From assembly GCA_021413445.1 (NCBI GenBank), contig JAIOQI010000048.1, positions 1 through 62,465 of the forward strand: a stretch of 62,465 bases of DNA. The letters are read 5' to 3'. The notes beneath the pieces were generated by a model. The model had not been told where the DNA came from and searched no databases. It saw nothing but the letters and a program-made list of their open reading frames with translations. How positions within the stretch are numbered: position 1 is the first letter of the stretch; each line of letters begins with the position of its first letter. The DNA comes from Alphaproteobacteria bacterium (GTDB lineage Bacteria; Pseudomonadota; Alphaproteobacteria; Micavibrionales; UBA2020). The position numbers were made by a program, and so were the translations under genes. Shown here one piece after another: positions 48,937-53,785 of the stretch.

Positions 48937-49539
48937 TTAGGCCTTGGGCCCGTCGTTGTTCTGTTCCGGCTTGGGCATCACGTCGCTGCCCGACATTTTT
49001 TTGGCGGCGGCATCGCCAAAGCGGCTCTTTACGCCAGGGAATTTATCAAAGATCAGGTCCCGCTTGGTGGATTTGGCGATGGCGTCCAGGTGTTCGTCCA
49101 GCACCTTATCCGCCAGCACTGAAGCGAGCTTTTCCAACATTTTCAGATTGTCCAGATAAAAAGTATTTTCTTCCTCAAGACGTTTTTTTGCCTTTTCAAC
49201 TGATCGACGCCCCATCTTATGCGCGATATAGATTTCCGGTATCGCCAGTACCGGCATCAGCCATGCTATTCCGGTAACAAATCCAATGCCAATAATAATC
49301 GGCGTCTGGATACCCACGCCGGTGAAATACCTCGGGGTATATTTTCCATCCGCGCGATCTTGAATATCCGTTTGTTTTTCTTCAATGACGGCCTGAATAT
49401 CCGCTTTCAGTTCTTCCAGCCTGAAGAGCTTTTCAGCAGCGCCCTCGATGCGCTTTGCCTCTTCCACCAGCTTATCGAATTTTTCCAGTTGCTGTTCTGC
49501 CGCTGCCTGCTCTTGCGCCTTCTTTTTCTTGCCGAACAT
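48937..49539 (-). CDS. Coiled-coil membrane protein (paralog A)
   Basis: 200 residues beginning MFGKKKKAQEQAAAEQQLEK. A long charged helix with FRLEELKADIQAVIEEKQTD, a hydrophobic pair (about 90-128, TPIIIGIGFVTGIAWLMPVL), a second charged helix and the tail KSRFGDAAAKKMSGSDVMP. It is a clear paralog of the next gene. The frame extends to 49668 through a repeat hairpin, but the start at 49539 matches the paralog. Function unknown; topology suggests two membrane helices with cytosolic coiled coils. Confidence 0.7.
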   Translation of the reverse strand: MFGKKKKAQEQAAAEQQLEKFDKLVEEAKRIEGAAEKLFRLEELKADIQAVIEEKQTDIQDRADGKYTPRYFTGVGIQTPIIIGIGFVTGIAWLMPVLAIPEIYIAHKMGRRSVEKAKKRLEEENTFYLDNLKMLEKLASVLADKVLDEHLDAIAKSTKRDLIFDKFPGVKSRFGDAAAKKMSGSDVMPKPEQNNDGPKA

Positions 49540-49622
49540 CTCTGGATTTCCTTTTCTGAGTATTGTCGCGAAGCTGTTAACATAATTAGCAATCGGAATT
49601 AAGTCAAATAAAAAATCCATCT

Positions 49623-49699
49623 TTGTCATTCTGAGCGCAGCGAAGAATCTTATCACCTTGAAAAACAAAGGGGATTCTTCGCTGCGCTCAGAATGACAA
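49623..49699. repeat. Perfect 27-bp inverted repeat hairpin
   Basis: Arms 49623-49649 and 49673-49699 are exact reverse complements (TTGTCATTCTGAGCGCAGCG with AAGAATC), separated by 23 bases. It is the same family as the weaker copy at 9134-9231 and lies exactly between the two paralogs. It may act as a bidirectional terminator or mRNA-stabilising hairpin, but lacks a T tract. Confidence 0.9.
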
Positions 49700-49719
49700 T
49701 TGATATTTTTCAGCAGACG

Positions 49720-50334
49720 TTAGGGATTGAATCCCGGCTCGTCATCGTCCTGTTCCGGTTTGGGCTTCGCTGAGCTGCCAGACATTTTCTTGGCGGCGGC
49801 GATGCCGAAGCGGCTCTTCACATCAGGAAACTTGTCAAAAATTTCATCACGCTTTGCGGATTTGGCGATGGCTTCCAGATGCTCGTCCAGCACCTTGTCC
49901 GCCAGCGCCGCAACGTGCCCTTCCAGGCCTTCCAGCTCCTTCAGGAAATCGGCGTTTTCCTGCTCGAGGCGCTTTTTTTCCTTTTTAGAAGATTGATTGC
50001 TTATCAGAAAAGTGCCCAGGGCCACCGGCATCGACACCAGTACCAGCGGCGTCATTCCGGTCGCGAAGGCAATGGCCCAGAAAGCCGGCACCTGAACGGC
50101 ACTGCTCGTCAGGAAAAACCGGTTGCCTTTTTTCTCGGCGCTATCACCAATGTCCGCCTCTTTTCCTTCAATAACATTCCGGATAGCCTCTTTCAGCTCT
50201 TCCAGCCTGAAGAGCCTTTCGCCAACATCCGCGATGGAGTTAATTTCGTCGGCCAGGGTGTTCAGTTGCTTCAACTGCTGCTGCCGTTCCGCCGCCGCCC
50301 GCTCCTGCGCTTTCTTTTTTTTCTTGCCGAACAT
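49720..50334 (-). CDS. Coiled-coil membrane protein (paralog B)
   Basis: 204 residues beginning MFGKKKKKAQERAAAERQQQ. Same layout as paralog A: FRLEELKEAIRNVIEGKEAD, a hydrophobic pair (VPAFWAIAFATGMTPLVLVS and beyond), then VAALADKVLDEHLEAIAKSA and the tail KSRFGIAAAKKMSGSSAKP. The strongest identity is in the LADKVLDEHL...KMSGS block, so that block is probably functional. No known family. rpsD lies upstream on the same strand but is separated by a terminator. Confidence 0.7.
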   Translation of the reverse strand: MFGKKKKKAQERAAAERQQQLKQLNTLADEINSIADVGERLFRLEELKEAIRNVIEGKEADIGDSAEKKGNRFFLTSSAVQVPAFWAIAFATGMTPLVLVSMPVALGTFLISNQSSKKEKKRLEQENADFLKELEGLEGHVAALADKVLDEHLEAIAKSAKRDEIFDKFPDVKSRFGIAAAKKMSGSSAKPKPEQDDDEPGFNP

Positions 50335-51498: not shown

Positions 51499-51702
51499 TT
51501 ACTTCACGCCGTCGATCATGCCCTTTGGCACTTCGATCGCGAATTCGTCAGCGCCGATACGGCCGGCGAGCTGCGCTTCCGCCGATACAGAAAGCTTCTT
51601 GCCGATGATGACGTAAGAGTTGTTTTCGGTCTCAAACACAGCCGGGCAGCAGGAGGCTGAATGGCAGACAAATTCAGATGGGGTGACTTCCTTGAGCTTC
51701 AT
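51499..51702 (-). CDS. Small Cys-containing protein
   Basis: 67 residues: MKLKEVTPSEFVCHSASCCP, then AVFETENNSYVIIGKKL and a hydrophilic end. The CHSASCC cluster could bind a metal or act in redox; such short proteins occur in several proteobacteria, annotated only as hypothetical. No signal peptide, so cytosolic. 65 bases after the FTR1 gene and 15 bases before the DUF2061 gene on the same strand. Confidence 0.68.
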   Translation of the reverse strand: MKLKEVTPSEFVCHSASCCPAVFETENNSYVIIGKKLSVSAEAQLAGRIGADEFAIEVPKGMIDGVK

Positions 51703-51767: not shown

Positions 51768-53312
51768 TTAATTCAGGGGCGTCTCGTATTCGAGCAAAAG
51801 CCTGCCCGCCCCGTCAGCCGCCGCATCGCTGATGCCCGCCAGATAGGCCGCCTCGTACTTGATATTGCGGTTAATAGCGCCGTAAACGGCAGGGCCTATG
51901 TAGTGTTCCTGCTCATTAAAGCCCGGATTTTCATTGGCTTTGCCGAAGCCGCTTTGAATCTCGAAACCCGGCTCAAAATGCATGTCATGCCTGTAGCGGC
52001 TGCTCCAATTGACGCTCCTGTCCGGGCCGCCGCCGGCATTGGGGCCGATTTCCTGCTCAATCCCGATATTGGCGCGGTGCAGGAACCTGCCCCATTCCTT
52101 TTCCAGCAGCAGCTTGGCCTCGATCGCATCCGGGGCATGGGAGGCAAACCCATGCACATAAGAAACGAGCGCCCCGGCATCCAGCCAGTATTCGCCCTGC
52201 TCGGAGAACTGGACGACATTCTCCCAGAGCATGTTGCTCATGACAAAACTCTCGTCCGGCTCTTTTTCAAACTCGCCGGTCAGTTCCGTCTTCCACCGGC
52301 TGTTGACGCCGTAAGCAACTTCCACTTCATGGGACTGAATGTTGTTTTTATCATGCTGCCCGTCAAAAGTCCGGCTGCCCGAGTATTCCAGCTCCAGCTC
52401 CCCCTCGTGAACGATGGGGGAATAAATCTTGTCCGCAGCCCGCGCCGGCCCCGGACTAACCAGCAGGCAGCCCAGCAGCACAGCGCCCGTCATCACCGCC
52501 CGCGCCGGTTTCCGGTCAGATTCCATCCAGGCAATGATGCCGAACAAGCCCGTCAGGGTCGCCACATAGAATATCCCCTGTATCAGGGTGGGATGGGCGC
52601 TGTAGCCGATCAGCCCGTGCAATACCTTGCCGGCAATGCCGGCATCGGAGATCAGCCACGAACTGTCCCACATCGGCAGGGAATAGCCTTCAAAATAACC
52701 GGCGGCGGACAAAAACACCGCGCCCTGCGCCGACAGCCCCGCGACCAGCAGGATCAGCAGGATATTGGTGACCTTGAACATGTACTGGGTGGACATTTTC
52801 AGGAGCCCGAAGTAAATCATGGCCCCCACCGTCACGCCGGACAGCGCCCCGGCCAGACTTCCGGCGGCAATCGAAAGAACGCCCTGCCCGGACAGGATCA
52901 TGCCGTAAATGAACAGGACAATCTCGGAGGCCTCGCGCAGCACGGCCAGCCCGATCACCAGAGAAAGCGAATACAACGGCATGGTCCCCTGCGCCACATC
53001 ATGCCCGACTTTTTTGATATGCGACGTCATGCTGCGGAAATGCTTGCGCATCCACAAGACCGTCCAGCCAATGACGAGGCTGGCGGCAAACAGGATAAAG
53101 GCATTCAGCAGTTCCTGCCCCAGCCCGGAGGCCAGACTGGAAATAGTTTCGGTGAAAAAAGCCACCAGGCCCGCCCCGGCGATGCCGCCCGCAAATCCGC
53201 CCGCAATCCACAGCATCCTTCCGCTCAAGCCGCGCGTGGCCGCCAGGATAATGCCTATAATCATCGCCATTTCCAGCGCTTCCCTAAACACGACGATCGC
53301 GGTAGATAACAT
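51768..53312 (-). CDS. FTR1 iron permease fused to a beta-rich, barrel-like C-terminal domain
   Basis: 514 residues. Residues 1-262 are an FTR1/EfeU permease with seven predicted helices and the two RExxE iron motifs, REALE (10-14) and REASE (126-130). A hydrophobic stretch follows (273-288, MTGAVLLGCLLVSPGP) ending ARA-AD, which looks like a signal peptide with a cleavage site. Residues 293-514 alternate polar and aromatic residues like an outer-membrane barrel (ELELEYSGSRTFDGQHDKNN, VEVAYGVNSRWKTELTGEFE, ending LLLEYETPLN). The frame is continuous. It lies 24 bases after the cupredoxin. Cleavage by signal peptidase would release the second half. Confidence 0.87.
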   Translation of the reverse strand: MLSTAIVVFREALEMAMIIGIILAATRGLSGRMLWIAGGFAGGIAGAGLVAFFTETISSLASGLGQELLNAFILFAASLVIGWTVLWMRKHFRSMTSHIKKVGHDVAQGTMPLYSLSLVIGLAVLREASEIVLFIYGMILSGQGVLSIAAGSLAGALSGVTVGAMIYFGLLKMSTQYMFKVTNILLILLVAGLSAQGAVFLSAAGYFEGYSLPMWDSSWLISDAGIAGKVLHGLIGYSAHPTLIQGIFYVATLTGLFGIIAWMESDRKPARAVMTGAVLLGCLLVSPGPARAADKIYSPIVHEGELELEYSGSRTFDGQHDKNNIQSHEVEVAYGVNSRWKTELTGEFEKEPDESFVMSNMLWENVVQFSEQGEYWLDAGALVSYVHGFASHAPDAIEAKLLLEKEWGRFLHRANIGIEQEIGPNAGGGPDRSVNWSSRYRHDMHFEPGFEIQSGFGKANENPGFNEQEHYIGPAVYGAINRNIKYEAAYLAGISDAAADGAGRLLLEYETPLN

Positions 53313-53336: not shown

Positions 53337-53681
53337 TTACTTGACCTTGATAACGCCCTTGATCTTGGGATGAAAATCATCGAAGTAAGGATAGGTTCCC
53401 GGTTTCAGGGGGCCGATGAAAACAACGACCTGCCCGTTCGGCGCCACGATCTTTTCACGATTGAGCTCATAGCTCTCGAACTCGATCGGCGATGAATCAA
53501 GGTTTTTCACGACGAGTTTCACCTTCTGCCCCGCCGGGATTACCAGCTCCGCCGGAGAGAATTGATGATCCTTCATCGTGATGACGTTGGCCTCATCACC
53601 GGCATATGAAGAAGGCGCTGCGAGAAAAAAACCCGCGCACAACAAACCCGTCCATAAAAGATATTTTTTTGAGAGTTTCAT
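53337..53681 (-). CDS. Periplasmic cupredoxin-domain protein (FtrB/EfeO-like)
   Basis: 114 residues with a signal peptide (cleaved near SYA-G). A single cupredoxin fold shows MKDHQFSPAELVIPAGQKVK, VVKNLDSSPIEFESYELNRE and PGTYPYFDDFHPKIKG. The type-1 copper Cys is missing, as in EfeO/FtrB cupredoxin domains, so blue-copper electron transfer is unlikely; iron or copper oxidation-coupled delivery to the permease is inferred. It is the first gene of the FTR1 cluster. Confidence 0.87.
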   Translation of the reverse strand: MKLSKKYLLWTGLLCAGFFLAAPSSYAGDEANVITMKDHQFSPAELVIPAGQKVKLVVKNLDSSPIEFESYELNREKIVAPNGQVVVFIGPLKPGTYPYFDDFHPKIKGVIKVK

Positions 53682-53708: not shown

Positions 53709-53785
53709 TGGTCGGAGTGCAGGGATTCGAACCCTGGGCCTCTAGCTCCCGAAGCTAGCACTCTACCAGGCTGAGCTACACTCCG
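53709..53785 (-). tRNA. tRNA-Pro (anticodon CGG)
   Basis: Acceptor CGGAGTG/CACTCCG, anticodon stem CTAGC/GCTAG with loop TTCGGGA, T-arm CAGGGTTCGAATCCCTG, discriminator A and encoded CCA. Confidence 0.95.

Follow-up and report, generated by a model that had tools for sequence, protein, structure and literature searches.

In the window, by which we mean the whole 62,465-nucleotide stretch of DNA analysed here, a single gene joins an FTR1-type permease to a predicted 12-stranded outer-membrane (OM) β-barrel through an internal segment with the features of a signal peptide. We consider it likely that this gene encodes a cleavable polyprotein, whose first half would reside in the inner membrane while its second half would be cut free and reach the OM, where it would probably serve the entry of iron. 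The parts are known and stand in a new combination: the fusion is real, recurrent and unannotated, and most likely supplies a permease and a pore from one chain. The open-access literature yielded no mention of an FTR1-barrel fusion, an earlier description elsewhere being possible, and nothing relevant on FTR1 in Micavibrio or on internal signal peptides.

The fused gene and its two halves

The window belongs to a draft genome of 87 contigs that is 87% complete. Reading of its open reading frames (ORFs) placed the fusion gene at positions 51,768-53,312 of the minus strand, where it encodes 514 aa without an internal stop. The initial annotation had described a permease and a β-rich half within one ORF, and this description is borne out by the uninterrupted frame, by the Pfam match to FTR1 and by 29 other fused proteins. 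The fusion gene is preceded on the same strand, at a distance of 24 bases, by a gene for a Cupredoxin_1 protein (53,337-53,681, minus strand; 114 aa; PF13473, E=4.4e-30), which carries its own N-terminal signal peptide and is the first gene of a two-gene unit. A cupredoxin gene lies directly 5' of the fusion in 29/30 fused loci, and at the remaining one the fusion starts close to a contig end. As to the surroundings, a tRNA-Pro (CGG) gene (53,709-53,785, minus strand) is located immediately 5' of the cupredoxin gene and in its orientation, and a small ORF of 67 aa with a CHSASCC stretch (51,499-51,702, minus strand) directly 3' of the fusion gene. Elsewhere in the window, two adjacent genes (48,937-50,334, minus strand) are tandem paralogues with 53% identity across 197 residues.

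The permease domain covers residues 1-264 (52,521-53,312, minus strand). Its residues 1-261 match Pfam FTR1 with E=1.5e-34 and 120 bits, against a curated cut-off of 25.3. Both RExxE motifs reported initially are indeed present, as REALE (residues 10-14; 53,271-53,285, minus strand) and REASE (residues 126-130; 52,923-52,937, minus strand), and their R, E and E residues are invariant in 30/30 fusions. Based on profile and motifs, we assign this half to the FTR1 family, from which iron transport is assumed. The protein scores below the cut-off of the NCBIfam EfeU equivalog (116.6 bits, cut-off 255) and of NCBIfam TIGR00145. The FTR1/EfeU family has a known seven-helix layout, and seven transmembrane helices are predicted here too, in a model of low confidence: AlphaFold2 run on the full-length chain with six sequences gave a poor result (mean pLDDT 53.9), in which the permease half is unusable. 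Loop charges, read by the positive-inside rule, indicate an N-out/C-in orientation of the FTR1 half, and the loop ahead of the internal signal segment bears a mean net charge of +2.4 across the fusions.

For the C-terminal half, AlphaFold2 run on an alignment of 78 sequences returned a closed 12-stranded barrel (mean pLDDT 97.2, pTM 0.90). When compared with the PDB by Foldseek, the 12-stranded barrels of FapF ranked first (TM-score up to 0.77, E about 1e-7), OmpF/OmpC-type porins came after them, and nearly all of the structures among the matches listed were outer-membrane barrels. Furthermore, hydrophobic and polar positions alternate along the strands, and E309, D378, N415 and E451 are among the conserved polar residues located on the polar side. 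The proposed resemblance to an OM protein is thereby upheld by model, structural matches and hydropathy, and we take the second half to be a membrane barrel, of confidently predicted fold, presumably destined for the OM. The other option raised initially, namely that this half stays periplasmic, is opposed by the barrel model and the hydropathy pattern, on which we reject a soluble periplasmic domain. The extent of the β-rich region needed a small correction: the region itself was confirmed, with its 12 strands, and the mature barrel starts nearer residue 293, so that the predicted domain comprises 222 residues (293-514; 51,771-52,436, minus strand).

By sequence, the window barrel has no match in Pfam or NCBIfam and no significant match in a search of PDB sequences. 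A few distant barrel relatives weakly match Phenol_MetA_deg (PF13557) and OMP_b-brl (PF13505), two families to which the window barrel itself shows no match, and with FapF it shares the 12-stranded fold at only about 10% identity. The CxxCH motif is absent from this half, which is therefore not a cytochrome-porin. The last residue is Phe in 60/78 members of the barrel family and aromatic in 66/78; the window barrel ends in TPLN, with Asn last and without the usual terminal aromatic. This family, which lacks a Pfam model above cut-off, can now be annotated.

Between the two halves, residues 265-292 (52,437-52,520, minus strand) comprise a basic n-region, a hydrophobic h-region and the tripeptide ARA, and they align with the signal peptide found at the N-terminus of barrels that stand alone. 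The signal peptide call is based on these motif features, which occur in 30/30 fusions, and on homology. Cleavage by signal peptidase I is predicted after A292 at A290-R291-A292 (52,437-52,445, minus strand). The signal-peptide-like stretch ending in ARA before AD, which the initial annotation had pointed out, was recovered as DRKPARAVMTGAVLLGCLLVSPGPARA followed by ADK, directly before residue 293. In full, the junction reads DRKPARAVMTGAVLLGCLLVSPGPARA followed by ADKIYSP, and it falls in the same alignment column as the ends of the stand-alone signal peptides, one example of which is MRAVLRLCFFTVFCLTMLSAPAFA followed by LDEIYSP. In all 30 fusions, a basic and a hydrophobic stretch lead into AxA (28/30) or S/T-x-A (2/30). 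Conservation is lowest in the n/h stretch (mean commonest-residue fraction 0.34), while the fraction reaches 0.93 at A290 and 1.0 at A292. By its n-region, h-region and A-x-A signature, the internal segment is thus a predicted substrate of signal peptidase I, an enzyme that the same genome encodes together with an Omp85-family protein.

Recurrence and gene order

After removal of duplicates, 30 distinct proteins, including that of the window, combine FTR1, signal segment and barrel in one ORF. A search of related genomes recovered full-length fusions in other members of the window's genus, family and order, an order that the named records place near Micavibrio; further fusions occur in four more alphaproteobacterial families and in one family of the same phylum outside Alphaproteobacteria. 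The coupling of permease and barrel in one gene, expected at first to be uncommon, is instead recurrent, though unannotated.

All 30 fusions have the order FTR1-then-barrel and none the reverse. Topology would call for this order: the barrel needs a signal peptide ahead of it and must have its last strand free at the C-terminus, and the C-terminus of FTR1 is cytoplasmic. Where the genes are separate, the order varies: cupredoxin-barrel-FTR1 was found at 13 loci, cupredoxin-FTR1-barrel at 2 and FTR1-cupredoxin-barrel at 2. Genomes with the two halves as adjacent genes, a search proposed at the outset, thus do exist, among them Alteromonas, Pseudoalteromonas and the window's own genus, some genomes of which carry cupredoxin, barrel and FTR1 as three genes. 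On plasmid pBGP9 of Alteromonas macleodii and in Pseudoalteromonas shioyasakiensis, the three genes overlap in the order cupredoxin, FTR1, barrel, and the barrel is annotated as a hypothetical protein. At both loci (L171 and L172), genes for a response regulator and a sensor kinase stand in one row with this trio, and this context suggests that the trio may be under two-component regulation in both species. In Hydrogenophaga sp. PBL-H3 (L170:3931-4680, L138:1414-2163), the barrel gene beside FTR1 is interrupted, and the annotation shows it as two hypothetical proteins. Altogether, 85 distinct barrels were collected, of which 30 are fused to FTR1, 25 lie beside cupredoxin and/or FTR1, and 30 stand alone, away from FTR1, the lone form being present in many genomes.

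Fate of the chain and role of the barrel

We propose that the permease would insert into the inner membrane so that its C-terminus faces the cytoplasm, as loop charges and the family layout suggest. The hydrophobic segment that follows, which bears the signature of a signal peptide, may then act as one and start export of the remaining chain. Signal peptidase I would cleave after A292, and the C-terminal domain would cross the periplasm with chaperones before BAM folds it into the OM as a 12-stranded barrel. Judging from operon and fusion partners, the barrel would probably admit iron or a small iron complex to the periplasm, where the co-encoded cupredoxin may handle or oxidise it for the FTR1 permease. 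The fusion would link the synthesis of the permease and of its OM partner to a single translation event.

That the metal is iron is assumed from FTR1 and cupredoxin, and the contexts in Hydrogenophaga (dmeF) and in the two marine species (two-component system) make it uncertain. Accepting cleavage and OM insertion as proposed, the barrel might not be an iron import pore and might rather act in export or tolerance of another metal, in structure, in sensing or in general diffusion. We consider this unlikely, although several observations point that way: a residue-level iron site was not identified, a response regulator and a sensor kinase precede the trio in both A. macleodii and P. shioyasakiensis, the Hydrogenophaga gene pair is close to the Co/Ni efflux gene dmeF, 30/85 barrels occur away from FTR1, and a consensus search of the window found no Fur box. 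On the other hand, 30/85 barrels are fused to FTR1 and 25 others neighbour cupredoxin and/or FTR1, no fusion departs from the R, E and E of either RExxE iron motif, and the net charge of the window barrel (-19) suits a path for cations.

The proposal that the chain is cut into a permease and an exported partner, one of the two options considered initially, gains from the conserved AxA site, the short linker and the stand-alone barrels. Only about 12 residues separate the cut site from the first strand, and the width of the periplasm is well above 10 nm; therefore, without cleavage, one chain could not occupy the two membranes at once. The internal segment might otherwise be an eighth transmembrane helix that stays uncleaved and tethers the C-terminal half to the permease in the periplasm. 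The topology would permit this, but a lipid-facing barrel is what model and hydropathy predict for the C-terminal half, the linker is too short to reach the OM, AxA or S/T-x-A is kept in every fusion, and stand-alone barrels exist, all of which makes an uncleaved helix improbable. Since the separate cupredoxin-FTR1-barrel trios of Alteromonas and Pseudoalteromonas indicate that each half can be produced as a chain of its own, and given the signal peptidase signature and the short linker, the best reading is in our opinion a polyprotein that signal peptidase I cleaves.

Alternatively, translation could also begin internally, just ahead of the signal peptide, and one gene would then yield two proteins. 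Some members do have in-frame start codons there, and the window protein has M263 and M274, but a Shine-Dalgarno-like sequence with a start before the h-region is found in only 4/30 fusions, the ATG is missing there in 11/30, and the full-length chain would still bear the barrel. As such starts are not conserved among the 30 fusions, we reject this as a general explanation and hold it to be very improbable in any case. Finally, an assembly, frameshift or missed-stop artefact (the initial annotation had named the region near 52,440), which a draft genome might raise, has a practically negligible probability and is refuted by 30 divergent, distinct fusions with a conserved junction, the other 29 showing the same single ORF on independent contigs and in independent genomes.

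Known systems, evolution and other cargo

The nearest mechanistic precedent known to us is FbcH, the cytochrome b/c1 precursor of Bradyrhizobium japonicum, in which an inner-membrane protein and a signal-peptide-bearing partner are reportedly made as one chain and split internally by signal peptidase. Both products of FbcH are said to remain in one inner-membrane complex, whereas the second product of the window gene is predicted to go to the OM.

Compared with FTR1/EfeU (OFeT, PF03239), the window permease is alike in its profile match, its two RExxE motifs, its seven-helix layout and its partner cupredoxin gene, and it differs by the added internal signal peptide and C-terminal OM barrel. 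In the available portions of published descriptions, the FTR1-type permeases of EfeUOB and of FtrABCD / P19-cFtr1 work with a cupredoxin or comparable partner in the periplasm, and the parts described for EfeUOB/M and FtrABCD are an inner-membrane permease and periplasmic partners (PMC9174327, PMC11966278). The window unit resembles them, as far as those portions go, in its FTR1-type permease and cupredoxin partner, and it instead co-encodes a barrel with the permease. It belongs to neither system. The M75 imelysin of EfeO/EfeM (PF09375) and the DyP peroxidase EfeB (PF04261) were not found in the genome, at its 87% completeness, and the EfeU equivalog score lies below cut-off, which excludes EfeUOB. 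FtrABCD was rejected since the conserved unit consists only of the cupredoxin and the FTR1-barrel fusion, not of FtrA, FtrB, FtrC and FtrD, and the neighbours vary among relatives.

The same portions of the EfeUOB and FtrABCD descriptions assign no OM component to FTR1-type uptake, for which the barrel is a concrete candidate. Its fusion to, or co-encoding with, the permease in several proteobacterial groups points to a dedicated OM partner. If our reading is true, the fusion would be a clear natural case of a single chain that supplies both membranes of a Gram-negative cell, recurrently and always in the sole order that topology permits. The recurrent fusions also make internal signal peptide processing directly testable.

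A single origin of the fusion was rejected, as a tree holding 12 fused FTR1 domains together is incompatible with the data (p-AU 2e-68). In the FTR1 tree (86 proteins), the fused label must change a minimum of 10 times, with 5 changes forced by well supported branches, and in the barrel tree 15 changes, 8 of them forced; with no known root, gains are indistinguishable from later splits or exchanges in these counts. The trees accordingly indicate that fusion or splitting took place repeatedly or that halves were exchanged. In the FTR1 tree, the fused protein L063 is sister to a protein from L074, a separate-gene cupredoxin-FTR1-barrel locus, and although both branches are long, the pair looks like the before-and-after of a fusion.

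A broader proposal, that a dedicated, TonB-independent OM channel of FTR1 uptake has been repeatedly fused to its permease and that the FTR1 C-terminus is a general launch point for secreted cargo, is in our judgement evenly poised. Two FTR1 proteins of 376 aa (L065:1216-2343, minus strand; L066:1501-2628, plus strand) continue after an internal signal-peptide-like segment into a small Cys-containing domain, presumably soluble and secreted, rather than into the barrel, and L061 of the same genus has the barrel. A stand-alone relative of this small domain (L169:1432-1731) carries its own signal peptide.
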